A DNA stretch of 5,230 bases, taken from Candidatus Mcinerneyibacteriota bacterium (GTDB lineage Bacteria > AUK180 > JAQVHJ01). The position numbers were made by a program, and so were the translations under genes. Position 1 is the stretch's first letter. Each line of letters opens with the position of its first letter. Positions 2 through 5,230 of the stretch are shown here, one piece after another. The DNA lies in the NCBI GenBank assembly GCA_030630935.1, contig DAOVMD010000250.1:1-5230 (forward strand), read 5' to 3'. The notes beneath the pieces are model-generated. The model made no database searches. It saw only the letters and a program-made list of their open reading frames with translations, and was not told the DNA's origin.

Positions 2-43
2 GCATGTACGAATTGTGGATATATCGAGATGTTTTTAAAATAA
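2..43 (+). CDS. C-terminal end of a small zinc-ribbon protein (partial, cut by window edge)
   Basis: The first codons of the window read ACTNCGYIEMFLK and then TAA at 41-43. This is the C-terminus of a paralogue of the zinc-ribbon protein at 439-630, which ends ACTNCGYIEMFVK. The visible part contains the second CxxC zinc knuckle (CTNCG). Five of 42 bases differ between the two genes: four changes are synonymous (GCA/GCT, TGT/TGC, ATC/ATA, GAG/GAA) and one is conservative (Leu/Val). This pattern fits two copies kept as functional proteins. The rest of the gene lies left of the window; by analogy it should be about 63 residues and have its own leader. The function is unknown. Confidence 0.8.
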   Translation, partial: ACTNCGYIEMFLK

Positions 44-84
44 ATTAAACCAATATTAGGAATTGTTAGAATATTTTGATTTTT

Positions 85-103
85 TTTATCCTGCAGGGAT
101 AAA
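85..103 (+). other. Conserved stem-loop in tail repeat, copy A
   Basis: TTTATCC (85-91) pairs with GGATAAA (97-103) around the loop TGCAG. The copy at 679-697 keeps both arms exactly while the loop reads CGGAG. The T run lies before the stem (80-87), not after it, and on the other strand the stem is followed by A residues. It is therefore not a canonical intrinsic terminator in either direction. Its role is unknown; 3'-end protection or processing is possible. Confidence 0.55.
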
Positions 104-127
104 GTGATAGTAGCCCAGCAATAAAGT

Positions 128-171
128 GTTCAAGTGTTCAATGCATGCTTCGCATGCGTTCAAGTGTTCAA
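128..171 (+). repeat. Hairpin flanked by 14-bp direct repeats, copy A
   Basis: GTTCAAGTGTTCAA occurs at 128-141 and again at 158-171. Between them is GCATGC-TTC-GCATGC (143-157), a 6-bp stem with a 3-base loop. The 14-mer is itself an imperfect tandem of GTTCAA. The same arrangement recurs at 722-765. It resembles a dispersed intergenic repeat rather than a gene-specific site. Confidence 0.75.
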
Positions 172-369
172 ATGTTATTGTAGAGATGTACGAATGCACA
201 TCTCGGTGAAATTATTTTAAATCAAAAACAAAAAAAAAAGAGAAACAATATGTGAATCCTCACTGAATAAAATGAATTTGGAGTACAGCACTTGAGCGCG
301 CCTTTGTGCTCTTATGCACTTGTGCCTTGTGCTCTCGACAGCAAAGCTGTCTTCTATCTATAAAATCCC

Positions 370-398
370 TTGAAATATTTTTAATTATATGGTATTAT
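370..398 (+). promoter_or_regulatory. Sigma-70-like promoter of zinc-ribbon gene 2
   Basis: TTGAAA (370-375), a 17-base spacer and TATTAT (393-398) form a near-consensus housekeeping promoter. The predicted transcript start near 405 gives a 5' UTR of about 34 bases. The copy before the dodecin keeps TTGNAA, the 17-base spacing and TANTAT, although five consecutive spacer bases differ. That supports the hexamers as the functional part. Confidence 0.65.
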
Positions 399-424
399 AA
401 AATCAGATACATAAACATAAAACC

Positions 425-432
425 AAAGGAGG
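425..432 (+). promoter_or_regulatory. Ribosome binding site that sets the zinc-ribbon start
   Basis: AAAGGAGG lies six bases before ATG at 439. A TTG three bases earlier (436) is in frame but too close to the site. The identical AAAGGAGG (1216-1223) sits six bases before the dodecin ATG at 1230, which supports ATG 439 as the true start. Confidence 0.8.
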
Positions 433-438
433 AGTTTG

Positions 439-630
439 ATGAGTAATATTAAGAATAATTGTTGCCCTAAGTGTGAGAATACCGAATGGCAAGATGGTAA
501 TCTTCAATCAAGCGGAAGTTCAATGAACATAAAATTTTTGCCTTCCGGAAAATTCTTGGTTCTTAAGAAGGATAAAATAAAAGTCAAGGCTTGTACGAAT
601 TGCGGATATATAGAAATGTTTGTAAAATAA
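439..630 (+). CDS. Small zinc-ribbon protein, function unknown
   Basis: This is a 63-residue soluble protein, counted from ATG 439. Two CxxC pairs are visible: Cys9-Pro-Lys-Cys12 near the N-terminus and Cys52-Thr-Asn-Cys55-Gly near the C-terminus. An extra cysteine, Cys8, adjoins the first pair. The spacing fits a single zinc ribbon whose two knuckles coordinate one zinc ion. The linker has a Ser/Gly-rich turn (about 24-28) followed by a lysine-rich stretch of alternating hydrophobic residues (about 31-50) that would form the beta-sheet. Proteins of this shape often bind nucleic acid or act as adaptors, but nothing here identifies a partner and I do not recognise a named family. It is the second copy of a tandem pair (partial copy at 2-43). 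Its promoter and ribosome binding site are shared by duplication with the dodecin gene downstream. The stop at 628-630 is followed by the tail repeat. Confidence 0.85.
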   Translation: MSNIKNNCCPKCENTEWQDGNLQSSGSSMNIKFLPSGKFLVLKKDKIKVKACTNCGYIEMFVK

Positions 631-678
631 ACCATAAATTAAACCAATATTATGAATTGTTAGAATATTTTGATTTTT

Positions 679-697
679 TTTATCCCGGAGGGATAAA
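679..697 (+). other. Conserved stem-loop in tail repeat, copy B
   Basis: TTTATCC (679-685) and GGATAAA (691-697) enclose the loop CGGAG. It is the counterpart of 85-103. The two substitutions between the copies fall in the loop and leave all seven base pairs intact. Confidence 0.55.
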
Positions 698-721
698 TTG
701 ATAGTAGCCCAGCAATAAAGT

Positions 722-765
722 GTTCAAGTGTTTAATGCATGCTTCGCATGCGTTCAAGTGTTCAA
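722..765 (+). repeat. Hairpin flanked by direct repeats, copy B
   Basis: GTTCAAGTGTTTAA (722-735) and GTTCAAGTGTTCAA (752-765) flank GCATGC-TTC-GCATGC (737-751). The arrangement matches 128-171 with a single base change. Confidence 0.75.
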
Positions 766-768
766 ATG

Positions 769-987
769 CAATAGTTTCGCTTCGCTACACATTTATGATC
801 TATGGTTGAAAATTGATAATTTAAGATTGATTTTGCATTATGTATGATAATGCATTTGCTGAAAACGATATTTCTTAATATAAAGTTTTTTAATTATTCT
901 TAATTAATAAAAGAAGATAAATCCTTTTCTGTTCTCAGTTCTCTGCTATCTACTCTCTGCTAAAGCAATAGAGTTGCTTTAGCATTG
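769..987. other. Non-coding spacer between tail and leader, about 197 bases longer than in copy A
   Basis: In copy A the tail and leader are separated by 22 bases (175-196); here the gap is 219. The extra DNA is AT-rich and I see no gene in it. It contains a GCTTCGCT motif (777-784), a 7-bp stem-loop GCATTAT-gtatg-ATAATGC (835-853), a CAGTTCTCTG motif (936-945) and a perfect 10-bp stem GCTAAAGCAA/TTGCTTTAGC (959-968 with 974-983). Either sequence was inserted here or copy A lost it. No target-site duplication or terminal inverted repeat is convincing. Confidence 0.7.
959..983. other. Perfect 10-bp inverted repeat
   Basis: GCTAAAGCAA and TTGCTTTAGC enclose the loop TAGAG, five bases before the leader repeat begins. 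No T tract follows on the plus strand, so it does not look like an intrinsic terminator for the zinc-ribbon gene. It belongs with the other short palindromes of this window. Confidence 0.5.
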
Positions 988-1229
988 CACATCTCGGTGA
1001 AATTATTTTAAATCAAAAACAAAAAAAAAGAGAAACAATATGAGAATCCTCACTGAATAAAATGAATTTGGAGTACAGCACTTGAGCGCGCATTTGTGCT
1101 CTTATGCACTTGTGCCTTGTGCTCTCGACAGCGAAGCTGTCTTCTATCTATAAAATTCCTTGTAATATTCCGCTTTATATGGTAATATAAAAATCAGATA
1201 CATAAACATAAAACCAAAGGAGGAGTTAT
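988..1229 (+). repeat. Leader repeat, copy B (5' flank of dodecin gene)
   Basis: This is the second copy of 197-438. It carries the same A-rich tract (nine A instead of ten), the same pair of TTGTGCTC motifs 23 bases apart (first at 1094-1101), and a GACAGC-GAA-GCTGTC hairpin (1127-1141) whose only difference from copy A is in the loop. The promoter and AAAGGAGG (1216-1223) are also kept. The similarity ends at the dodecin start codon. Confidence 0.9.
1160..1188 (+). promoter_or_regulatory. Sigma-70-like promoter of the dodecin gene
   Basis: TTGTAA (1160-1165), a 17-base spacer and TAATAT (1183-1188) are the counterpart of the promoter at 370-398. Transcription would begin near 1195, giving a 5' UTR of about 35 bases that includes the strong AAAGGAGG site. 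The spacer differs from copy A in five adjacent bases (TTTAA versus CCGCT), so promoter strength may differ between the two genes. Confidence 0.65.
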
Positions 1230-1433
1230 ATGTCAGTAGTCAAGGTTATAGAAGTAATTGCACAATCAGAGAAAAGCTGGGAAGACGCTGTCCAGTCAGC
1301 AATCACAGAAGCTTCAAAGTCAATTGAAAATATCAAGTCCATTTATATTAAGGATTTCTCTGCAAAAGTAGAAGATAACAAAATCGTCTCATTCAGAGTA
1401 GATACAAAGATCAGCTTTGTTGTAAAAGCATAA
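1230..1433 (+). CDS. Dodecin family protein (flavin-sequestering fold, atypical flavin-site residues)
   Basis: This is a 67-residue cytosolic protein, the usual dodecin length. Dodecins form hollow dodecamers that store or buffer flavins (FMN, riboflavin, lumichrome). The family layout is clear: a first strand (VVKVIEVIAQS, 3-13), the SWEDAV helix start (16-21) leading into the only helix (about 17-33), then two long strands (about 37-47 and 51-65). An ungapped alignment from memory with Halobacterium salinarum dodecin (query number one higher) matches Ser16-Trp17, Asn34 and Phe63 to its Ser15-Phe16, Asn33 and Phe62. It puts Ser37 at the flavin-stacking Trp36 and Arg56 at Gln55. The family call is firm, but flavin binding in the standard mode is doubtful. 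ATG 1230 sits six bases after AAAGGAGG, and the gene has its own promoter. It appears to be transcribed alone, ending in a hairpin that begins at the stop codon. Confidence 0.92.
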   Translation: MSVVKVIEVIAQSEKSWEDAVQSAITEASKSIENIKSIYIKDFSAKVEDNKIVSFRVDTKISFVVKA

Positions 1434-1559: not shown

Positions 1560-1635
1560 GCATTGTCATATATAGTGCAAAAAATTATTCATTTTTCATT
1601 GTTCATTGTTACTTCTTCATTGTTGAGCGAAGCGA
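1560..1635. repeat. 76-bp dispersed repeat, copy 1 (overlaps the 3' end of the DUF2784 gene)
   Basis: This aligns without gaps to 2396-2471 at an offset of 836, with 11 mismatches that I counted (about 86 percent identity). It begins GCATTNTCATATATA, continues with degenerate 7-base units of the TTCATTG type (about 1585-1624) and ends GAGCGAAGCGA. Heptad repeats of this kind are known as mobile intergenic sequences in several bacterial groups. Here it supplies the last codons and stop of the DUF2784 gene. Confidence 0.8.
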
Positions 1636-2038
1636 TATTATTAGTTTTCTTCCTTGGTGGGATGAAGATTATTGTAAGGATTACAATTATTCCCCAACCT
1701 ATATATAACATTGTGAAAAACCATTCAGGGAAGTCATAGAAAATAATCATTCTGAGTAATCTTGCAATAAATGAAAGCTCTTTTTCAATAGACTGTCCTG
1801 CAGCTATTCTGAGATTATTCTCCCACTCAGTTAACGGGCAAAACATTCCAATTACCGCTTCAATTGAAACTAAAACCACCGCTACAAGGTGAGTAATTCT
1901 AAATGCCCTATTCCGGATCCAAGCCCATTTAAATATTGCACCAATAATAATTAAAAATTCCCCGCCAACCGTGAAACTTACATAGAGGAAATGAAATGTA
2001 ACAATAATATCTGCAAGAAGTGCGTAATAATTTTCCAT
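1589..2038 (-). CDS. DUF2784 family small membrane protein
   Basis: This is a 149-residue inner-membrane protein of the DUF2784 type, whose biochemical function is not established. The diagnostic features are present: an N-terminal LADIIVTFHFLYVSF helix with His16 (about 8-34), a second helix starting at His50 (about 48-66), then CPLTEWENNLR (67-77) followed by AAG (79-81). A Phe/Tyr-rich segment with Pro104 leads into a last hydrophobic helix (about 107-127). A basic PPRKK patch (127-131) ends the family-like part. The remaining 17 residues or so are polar (SLNNEEVTMNNEK), unlike the family, and are encoded by the dispersed repeat at 1560-1635. Family members are usually nearer 120-130 residues. 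ATG at 2036-2038 has a weak AAGG eight bases upstream. It is convergent with the dodecin gene and 439 bases downstream of the DUF3160 gene on the same strand. Confidence 0.88.
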   Translation of the reverse strand: MENYYALLADIIVTFHFLYVSFTVGGEFLIIIGAIFKWAWIRNRAFRITHLVAVVLVSIEAVIGMFCPLTEWENNLRIAAGQSIEKELSFIARLLRMIIFYDFPEWFFTMLYIGWGIIVILTIIFIPPRKKTNNIASLNNEEVTMNNEK

Positions 2039-2477: not shown

Positions 2478-4757
2478 TTATTCCTTCGTATAAAAACTTT
2501 TTATCCAACTTGGTCTTTCGGGCTGCTTCCCGGTCTTGAGCATTTTTCTCCACTTTTCATCGGTTAACCTATCCGACATCGGGTGTTTAAACTCGTAATA
2601 TGACAGGGTTGGTCCAGCACCTATCAAGATTCTACCATCGGGTAATTTATACGCTGCAATAATTAAATCTACATATCCGGTTCCTTCTTCCAGGCATTTC
2701 TTTGTATTCTGATCAGTATGGACATCGGCAATGATTGTGGTCTTCATCCCTTTTGACTCCACTCCTGCAACTGTACCTTCAAGGTTCTTACCAAAGTTCC
2801 TGATAAATCTATAATCACTCTCTGTCAACTCTTCATTCTTTAATTCCTTCGTAGAAATCGCTACTAACTTTTCCAGGATATTCTCCAGGTGTTTCAGACG
2901 GCTTTCGGCTTTTTCGTCAAGAACCTTAAGTTCCGTCAGACCTTTATTAGTCATCCTGGTCATACAAAGTAAATGCGCATAAAACTCAGGTATTGGTTCA
3001 ACATAACCAACAACCGGTTTTGGCTGGGGCGGCATAGGTCCCACACTCTCGCGTGTCATTTCAGGTGTATAACTCTGTTTCGCATATAAAATAGTATCAT
3101 GTCTGAGACTTGACCATGATCCCAACGCTGCGTTTAGTTCTTTATCAAGCCATGCTTCAGTCTTCATAAATGTCTGGTAGTTCCCTGAGTAATCATAACT
3201 GACCAATATCTTCAATGCATATAACCAGCTCCAGTATAGGTTCTTATTCCAATCCTTCTCACTGAACTCACCGAACTCCTTCTCCAATTTCTTATATTGC
3301 TTTCCATAAGTTGTATAATCAAGGTCCCCGCCCTTTTTCAGGATATCCACTGCTCTCTTTGATCCAAGCAGACTCATTACATCCAGACCCCTGGGGAAAC
3401 CTCGAACAAATCCGTTCGGGATCTTGATCATGGTAAACGGATTACCTCGACCAATAAAGTCTCCAGCAGCCGGGGATACTAATTGGCTGAGCATATAAGA
3501 ATCGGGAACAAATCTCTGACCCATAAAACGAAGACCCTTTGTGCTGTCAAGAATCTTATCAAGATGCTCAGGCGTAAATGCTTCTCCTGGTCCGACAGCA
3601 ACTCCTGATTCACCTGTTCCGCCATAGATCTTAGGGCTTGGTAATAATGCAAACTCCTTCCTTAATTTAAATAATTTTTCATCATCCAATAACTCTGCTG
3701 AATCAAACTGAGTCCCGTAAACCTTCCGCATGATTTCTCTATAATCGTATATGGAAAGGTCATCCGAGAACCCGACATAATATGCAGTGACAAGATAAAT
3801 CCGGTTCCAGACCTCTGCAACAGTTCTATCTCCTGCCTTAACATCATCAACATTTGCCGAGATTAACATTGCCTGGAGTGTCTGGATCTTCGCTTCATCA
3901 GGAGAGATCAATGCTTTTGCCGGCGGGGACATGGTTCCAAAATTCTTATGTCCTTTTAAAAGGAATGTCATACGACCATACCACATCATTGCCTTGAAAT
4001 ACTTTTTCAATTCCTCACTCCGGGTATAATGACCACGGGGAACATACTGGGAATAGTCTTCGTTATAAGTAAATAACGGGGATGGTTTGAACCCGGTATG
4101 AGCTTTGATATTTTCGAGTTCCTGATCAACTTTCTTCTTGACATAACCCGGAACCTCAGCATCAGGGTTCAGAAGTTTCAGGGCAATTGTAAAAAATGCA
4201 ACATTATTCTTTGCAGCAGCCTTTAAATCACCACCGAAATTATCGTACTGAGTCATGGACTTCTTCTGCATACCTTCAGTTGCCTTGATTAAATCAGGAT
4301 AAAATTCCTTCTCTTCAATTTCTTTTAATGTCTCACCAAACTGAATGTGATACAGGTGAAGAAGTGTGTCACACGTTACAAATATCGGTATCTCCCGATC
4401 TTTCAAGGTTTCGTAGGGCTTGACAATATCGTCAACCTGCCCAAACGGGATTACAACAAAACCGTTCTTACTTAAATAGGACTTTGCGGTGTTTGTTAGA
4501 CGGAGTTTATTAACGACACTATTATAATTTGCAATTGCATTGGGTTTCAATGGTAAAGAATACTGTGGGATCTTCGGCTCAACATCAACCTTAACAGGTG
4601 AATAGAATCCTGCAAAGAATGTCACCGGGTCTTCAAGCTTATCAATCTTCTCAATTGAAATCACTTCCGCTCCTCCTGTCGAACATGACATAAATAAAAG
4701 GATAAAGGAAAAACTTAATAAAATTCCAACTACCCAAAAAAATCTTTGTCTGCTCAT
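2478..4757 (-). CDS. DUF3160 family lipoprotein, function unknown
   Basis: This is a 759-residue protein within the usual size range of DUF3160 proteins. A basic N-terminus (SRQR), a hydrophobic core (7-23) and LFMSC (21-25) form a lipoprotein signal peptide. Cys25 would be lipidated, and Ser26 at +2 favours outer-membrane sorting. The lipobox is imperfect, with Phe and Met at -3 and -2. Recognisable family blocks in order are PIFVTCDTLLHLYH (124-137), YVPRGHYTRSEELKKYFKA (238-256), FMGQRFVPDSYML (411-423), RGFPRGLDVMSLLGS (452-466), SWSSLRHDTILYAKQSY (547-563), VGYVEPIPEFYAHL (583-596), IADVHTDQNT (676-685) and GAGPTLSYYEF (713-723). The conserved Asp, His and Glu residues look like a buried active or metal site, but no catalytic motif such as HExxH is present and no activity is known. 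The ATG follows GAGG by six bases, and the gene has its own promoter at 4803-4831. Confidence 0.92.
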   Translation of the reverse strand: MSRQRFFWVVGILLSFSFILLFMSCSTGGAEVISIEKIDKLEDPVTFFAGFYSPVKVDVEPKIPQYSLPLKPNAIANYNSVVNKLRLTNTAKSYLSKNGFVVIPFGQVDDIVKPYETLKDREIPIFVTCDTLLHLYHIQFGETLKEIEEKEFYPDLIKATEGMQKKSMTQYDNFGGDLKAAAKNNVAFFTIALKLLNPDAEVPGYVKKKVDQELENIKAHTGFKPSPLFTYNEDYSQYVPRGHYTRSEELKKYFKAMMWYGRMTFLLKGHKNFGTMSPPAKALISPDEAKIQTLQAMLISANVDDVKAGDRTVAEVWNRIYLVTAYYVGFSDDLSIYDYREIMRKVYGTQFDSAELLDDEKLFKLRKEFALLPSPKIYGGTGESGVAVGPGEAFTPEHLDKILDSTKGLRFMGQRFVPDSYMLSQLVSPAAGDFIGRGNPFTMIKIPNGFVRGFPRGLDVMSLLGSKRAVDILKKGGDLDYTTYGKQYKKLEKEFGEFSEKDWNKNLYWSWLYALKILVSYDYSGNYQTFMKTEAWLDKELNAALGSWSSLRHDTILYAKQSYTPEMTRESVGPMPPQPKPVVGYVEPIPEFYAHLLCMTRMTNKGLTELKVLDEKAESRLKHLENILEKLVAISTKELKNEELTESDYRFIRNFGKNLEGTVAGVESKGMKTTIIADVHTDQNTKKCLEEGTGYVDLIIAAYKLPDGRILIGAGPTLSYYEFKHPMSDRLTDEKWRKMLKTGKQPERPSWIKSFYTKE

Positions 4758-4831: not shown

Positions 4832-4855
4832 ATGAATTCTGGTTAACAAATTTTG

Positions 4856-4890
4856 GAGTGCATTGATGAACTCTGTGAATCAATGCATTC
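4856..4890. other. Long inverted repeat upstream of the DUF3160 promoter
   Basis: GAGTGCATTGAT (4856-4867) and ATCAATGCATTC (4879-4890) pair over 12 positions with one G/T wobble, around an 11-base loop. It lies 25 bases upstream of the -35 element. It could be a regulator site, or the transcription end of a gene arriving from the right on the minus strand. No T run supports a terminator. Confidence 0.4.
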
Positions 4891-4894
4891 AAAC

Positions 4895-4908
4895 GGGTGC
4901 TTGCACCC
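4895..4908. other. GGGTGC-TT-GCACCC palindrome
   Basis: This perfect 14-base palindrome has GCTTGC at its centre, the same core as GGGAGC-TT-GCTCCC at 1452-1465. It is followed by TTATTAATT on the plus strand, which would suit a plus-strand terminator, but no plus-strand gene lies before it. Confidence 0.4.
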
Positions 4909-4960
4909 TTATTAATTGATAAACCGATTTTTCCACCGTTTTTAAAGCTACAAACGTTAT

Positions 4961-4997
4961 TTGTCATTGCGAGAGAGCATAGCGATCGCGGCAATCT
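4961..4997. repeat. REP-like palindromic element (TCATTGCGAG...GCGGCAATCT type)
   Basis: The element opens TTGTCATTGCGAG and closes GCGGCAATCT. ATTGC (4966-4970) and GCAAT (4991-4995) are the complementary ends, and a perfect GCGATCGC palindrome (4982-4989) lies inside. Elements of this form are widespread as repetitive extragenic palindromes in many bacterial genomes, where they give spurious reading frames with an RLPRSL-SLAMT pattern; that pattern is visible here on the minus strand. No RAYT transposase gene is in the window. Confidence 0.7.
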
Positions 4998-5169
4998 AAT
5001 ATTTTTTATTTTTCTTTGGATTTTTCCCTTTAGCATGATCAGTGTGTTCAGTAGTTAATTTTGCACTCTTTAGTTCCTTTAAGCACCAGTGTTTCTAAAT
5101 AAATGTAAACGGTATAATTAAGTCAAGTATTAGTCTCTTCAAGTACCTGCTATTTTTTTTGTTTATTTA

Positions 5170-5199
5170 AGTTCTCGTTAGTTCTCTTCAGTTCTCTGT
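5170..5199. repeat. Three tandem 10-bp units (AGTTCTCNNN)
   Basis: AGTTCTCGTT, AGTTCTCTTC and AGTTCTCTGT follow one another with a period of 10. The third contains CAGTTCTCTG (5189-5198), which recurs exactly at 936-945 and, inverted, at 1488-1497. After it comes an AT-rich stretch and GAGCGAAGCGAG (5215-5226). Confidence 0.65.
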
Positions 5200-5230
5200 T
5201 AAATAAAAAAGTTTGAGCGAAGCGAGTTAA

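Follow-up and report, generated by a model that had tools for sequence, protein, structure and literature searches.

In the window, by which we mean the whole 5,230-base stretch of DNA analysed here, a block made of the end of a zinc-ribbon gene, a truncated repeat module R0, the module R1, a connector, the modules R5 and R4 and a promoter/Shine-Dalgarno leader is present in two tandem copies, of which copy A (2-438) would feed zinc-ribbon gene 2 and copy B (589-1229) would feed a dodecin gene. We consider it probable (about 60%) that this is a tandem block of common descent which later underwent exchange, with either gene as a possible donor of the leader. The window is exactly one contig (C264) of a draft genome of 3.16 Mb in 471 contigs, 80% complete, and its base 1 lies inside zinc-ribbon gene 1, most of which is off the contig. 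The features are as follows.

2-43, plus strand: 3' end of zinc-ribbon gene 1 and start of copy A, last 13 codons (ACTNCGYIEMFLK) and stop, recognised by homology to 589-630
44-118, plus strand: tail A, with a truncated R0 from about 73 (TATCCCGTAGGGATA hairpin, then GTAGCCC), recognised from other R0 copies
119-174, plus strand: R1 of copy A, with palindromic GCATGCTTCGCATGC, from dispersed matches
175-195, plus strand: short A-type connector, TTATTGTAGAGATGTACGAAT, slightly altered versions of which occur in L037, L040 and L159
196-365, plus strand: R5 and R4 of copy A, distal leader, dispersed
366-438, plus strand: proximal leader A, TTGAAA-17-TATTAT (370-398), 5'UTR and Shine-Dalgarno AAAGGAGG, the promoter by consensus only
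439-630, plus strand: zinc-ribbon gene 2, 63 aa, PF09855 (Zn_ribbon_13 / DUF2082), by profile match
589-630, plus strand: 3' end of zinc-ribbon gene 2, where copy B begins, homologous to 2-43 (37/42 identical)
631-712, plus strand: tail B, with a truncated R0 from about 667, from alignment to A and other R0 copies
713-768, plus strand: R1 of copy B, from dispersed matches and alignment to A
769-986, plus strand: long B-type connector, modules R2, R2b and R3, which recurs in L010 and partly in L011, L015 and L016
987-1155, plus strand: R5 and R4 of copy B, distal leader, dispersed and aligned to A
1156-1229, plus strand: proximal leader B, TTGTAA-17-TAATAT, 5'UTR and Shine-Dalgarno AAAGGAGG, by homology to A
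1230-1433, plus strand: dodecin gene, 67 aa, PF07311, by profile match
1589-2038, minus strand: gene for a DUF2784 membrane protein
2478-4757, minus strand: gene for a DUF3160 protein

An earlier note on this DNA had proposed that copies A and B share their parts in one order; alignment against shuffled sequences bears this out, and shows the orientation to be the same as well. The local alignment score of the whole block was 417, with 24 ± 2.5 (maximum 31) for dinucleotide shuffles, and the end anchors alone scored 95 (2-72 against 589-666) and 98 (366-438 against 1156-1229), with shuffles at about 18 ± 3. Both copies begin with the final 13 codons and the stop of a zinc-ribbon gene and continue through the tail and then the leader up to a start codon. 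Identity between A and B is 88% in the zinc-ribbon 3' end (42 bases including the stop), 97% with a 7-base indel in the tail after the stop, 93.5% in R0, 98% in R1, 97.5% in R4 and 100% with a 1-base indel in R5. The middle differs, with 21 bases in A (175-195) and about 218 in B (approximately 769-986), which was not visible to the earlier reader. The claim that leader homology ends at the two start codons was confirmed, as it stops at GGAGGAGTT, two bases before ATG 439 and ATG 1230. Such a breakpoint had been called unusual; in our opinion no special mechanism is needed, because a functional join must keep the spacing of the Shine-Dalgarno sequence to the ATG, and selection keeps that sequence in front of the start codon.

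Only the zinc-ribbon 3' end (42 bases) and the last ~74 leader bases are specific to this locus. A search of copy B (641 bases) against its own genome gave 62 matches, and mapping on the fetched loci resolved positions from about 73 to 365 of A and from about 667 to 1155 of B into the dispersed modules R0, R1, R2, R2b, R3, R5 and R4. R0 was found at 19 other places in the genome at E<2e-6; as seen in the window (73-118 and 667-712) and in L144-L162, it measures about 80 bases, with hairpins TATCCCGTAGGGATA and CCCCGCAATTTATTGCGGGG around GATAGTAG. The genomic copies usually run on from the TATCCCGTAGGGATA hairpin into a second one, CCC(C/A)GCAATTTATTGC(G/T)GGG, and in both window copies this second hairpin is cut after GCAAT, with R1 directly next. 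Many R0 copies lie less than 200 bases from contig ends, thus R0 probably breaks the assembly. R1 gave 45 matches in the fetched genome loci and a 92-95% match in one class relative (G003). The long connector keeps its module order elsewhere, R1-R2-R2b-R3-R5 in L010 and R2b-R3-R5 in L011, L015 and L016, and other R4 copies generally continue otherwise than those of the window, with ATAAAACGACTG or similar. Short stretches like R1, R4 and R0 are present in class relatives; we observed R1-like and R4-like modules in L163, L164, L166 and L167, and L167 holds a local tandem array of the R4 core.

The tail and the distal leader, and these parts only, thus consist of many dispersed palindrome-bearing copies of the kind expected of REP/BIME-like repeats. 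A Y1 (RAYT) transposase flanked by the modules was searched for at the three Y1 loci of the genome, where only weak, chance-level matches and no clear module copy were found, and Y1 transposases were rejected as module carriers. Repeat-module mosaic also makes up most of the non-coding DNA of the window (713-1155, 1476-1650, 2050-2480 and 4850-5230), and its modules recur, variously combined, at dozens of genomic sites. Ahead of each leader, at 337-351 and 1127-1141, lies a hairpin of the form GACAGC-loop-GCTGTC, and a similar hairpin, ACAGCGAAGCTGTCT, sits right at the stop codon of dodecin (1433-1447). A scan rated all three as terminator-like, the third of them on the minus strand (3 found, 0.7 expected).

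Evidence of common origin comes from the joints between the modules. Both the R0|R1 junction (118/119 and 712/713) and the R4|leader junction (365/366 and 1155/1156) are confined to A and B within the 3.16-Mb draft genome, in searches which allowed 2 and 3 mismatches, respectively. Because neither junction occurs anywhere else in the genome, we infer a single ancestral block for A and B; that an identical mosaic was put together on two separate occasions is excluded for practical purposes. Outside R1, moreover, A and B resemble each other more than either resembles the copies elsewhere in the genome, the best identities to which are up to 90% for R0 (full module), up to 91% for R5 and up to 92% for R4; R1 reaches 98% elsewhere in the genome too.

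Synonymous divergence between the two zinc-ribbon genes is high, with pS of about 0.59 over 13 codons, or ~7 synonymous sites, on which the whole contrast rests, while the non-coding DNA of A and B differs by 2-4% (16/371 mismatches; Fisher P = 2e-4). Since synonymous divergence far exceeds non-coding divergence, the zinc-ribbon paralogues seem to predate the intergenic block; this points, as a hint and not as proof, to later homogenisation or a second exchange and not to one duplication. Selection acting on the non-coding sequence is another possible source of this contrast. Over the 13 shared codons there are 5 differences, 4 of them synonymous (P = 0.004 under neutrality), thus both zinc-ribbon genes look maintained.

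The proximal leaders deserve separate consideration. The earlier note had allowed that the leader might prove to be a dispersed element standing before many unrelated genes. This applies to the distal leader, whose modules adjoin genes in any orientation and have no special tie to start codons, but not to the proximal 74 bases, for which no other convincing copy was found in the genome; the notion of a purely dispersed leader was rejected for this part. A candidate third copy at C175:10930 (E 6e-5) was rejected as well, as it falls within a reverse-strand reading frame that is AT-rich. Between A and B, the promoter region is identical at 25/33 positions without gaps and the 5'UTR with the Shine-Dalgarno at 37/37, and in both leaders a TG stands one base before the -10 hexamer. 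A five-base block in the hexamer spacer differs between the copies, and yet the spacer length is kept, which suits a promoter. In a consensus scan of the region, 6 candidate promoters were found against 7.1 ± 2.8 expected, i.e., not above chance, and the hexamers of leader B fall below the cut-off of that scan. We therefore treat both proximal leaders as predicted promoters, on the strength of the sequence. A search for known RNA families in the leader found none, only chance-level matches below gathering scores.

As for the genes, zinc-ribbon gene 2 exceeds the cut-off of the PF09855 profile (29.6 bits, cut-off 23), and the dodecin exceeds that of PF07311 (85.7 bits, cut-off 22.5) and falls below that of the NCBIfam equivalog model (46.2, cut-off 75). 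The search for closer relatives of the zinc ribbon in 386 genomes yielded one weak match, and no viral or phage origin was found for either the zinc ribbon or the leader. Comparison with related genomes, which the earlier note had asked for, covered six other genomes of the class, in which neither a dodecin nor a PF09855 zinc ribbon was found; it favoured neither polarity, and the absence of both genes means that they may be late acquisitions. We also considered a conserved pairing of dodecin with the zinc ribbon elsewhere and rejected it, as a clear zinc-ribbon neighbour was found at 0/80 dodecin loci of other genomes (one weak match, E 0.05, in L106). A literature search found no paper with both dodecin and this zinc ribbon.

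These results can be set against the history given in the earlier note, an ancestral order of zinc ribbon, tail, leader and dodecin in which one duplication of the first three parts put gene 2 behind a copy of the dodecin promoter. The order of the parts, the unique ends and the edges fit this model, and the private junctions common to both copies support its tandem block of one origin. What lacks support is the single step: a pS of about 0.59, though from 13 codons, is much above the 2-4% of the non-coding DNA, a contrast that one duplication followed by neutral drift would not lead one to expect, and the internal connector has been replaced, so a second event is needed anyway. Nor does anything show that the leader started as that of dodecin, and its direction, with the zinc ribbon being placed under the dodecin promoter, goes beyond what the six relatives and the 80 dodecin loci can tell. 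As a whole, we hold this model to be a tentative possibility. The reverse polarity, in which an array of leader-zinc ribbon-tail cassettes existed and dodecin took over the leader of the last one, fits the sequence equally well, and the two directions have about equal support. Because the contig breaks off within another zinc-ribbon gene, more cassettes may lie to the left; however, repeat and module scans detected no zinc-ribbon tail just after dodecin (from 1434 on), and gene 2 is the single full zinc-ribbon gene found in the assembly. We regard such an array as rather unlikely. These gradings overlap, as the preferred reading includes both polarities, and they are neither exclusive nor meant to sum to one.

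Two further explanations would remove the duplication altogether. If the leader were merely a dispersed element inserted twice independently, the 62 matches of copy B, with the dispersed modules of its tail and distal leader and their traces in class relatives, would be accounted for. This is indeed true of the middle of the block; for the block as a whole it is largely refuted by the proximal 74 bases and the two junctions, all private to A and B, and by the spacing of the zinc-ribbon 3' end from R0, which is almost equal in the two copies (7-base indel). We consider it extremely improbable. The joining of two loci or two strains via shared repeats during assembly is quite improbable too. Such an artefact is favoured by a draft in 471 contigs, many of which end close to R0 copies, and by exact words of up to 48 bases common to A and B, but the substitutions throughout and the replacement of ~200 bases show that one read path was not simply doubled, and zinc-ribbon gene 2 sits unbroken between the copies.

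It seems, then, that a tandem block of common descent with later exchange is the best explanation. The zinc-ribbon paralogues would be the older element, and the intergenic block would have been copied later between the neighbours, by unequal crossing-over or gene conversion in repeat-rich DNA, with the connector of one copy exchanged for another dispersed form. Each gene would have a sigma-70-like promoter of the extended -10 type to itself, in its own copy of the block, and both would be translated from the same strong Shine-Dalgarno leader, the likely outcome being two small, separately transcribed genes with near-identical leaders, which may be co-regulated. We find it very improbable that promoter-Shine-Dalgarno leaders travel in this genome as cassettes along with dispersed repeat mosaics, that conversion keeps neighbouring copies alike and that unrelated genes thereby acquire a common regulatory leader which stops precisely at the start codon.

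In essence, the block is a local duplication of an ordinary kind, in DNA rich in repeats, and it gives a zinc-ribbon gene and a dodecin gene nearly the same leader. It offers a clear small example, from an uncultured lineage, of a gene gaining the (predicted) promoter and ribosome-binding leader of its neighbour by local duplication, and it shows mosaic intergenic repeats surrounding and reshaping such blocks, while the general picture is unchanged. More attention may be due to the dispersed modular repeats, traces of some of which are seen across the class, than to the duplication itself.

Through gene conversion, tandem paralogues that lie side by side come to be more similar in one segment than would be expected from their age. 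We liken the block to this process, the likeness being drawn here from 13 codons. The Cit+ duplication described by Blount et al. in 2012 reportedly puts citT behind the rnk promoter. In both systems a tandem copy brings a gene under a neighbouring gene's leader; unlike Cit+, the block described here is old (2-12% divergence) and has its edge at a start codon. According to passages of PMC5526668 and references therein, promoter capture by rearrangement or tandem duplication is a known kind of event, and the Cit+ duplication of the E. coli long-term evolution experiment is cited there as promoter capture. REP and BIME elements, and small non-autonomous mobile repeats, are short, palindromic, high-copy and intergenic and occur in mosaics (PMC2817692, PMC3733652, PMC2229807). 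The modules of the window share these traits, from short length to mosaic arrangement, a likeness and not an assignment to the class, and they are unlike REP and BIME in having no clear copy at the genome's Y1 transposase loci.
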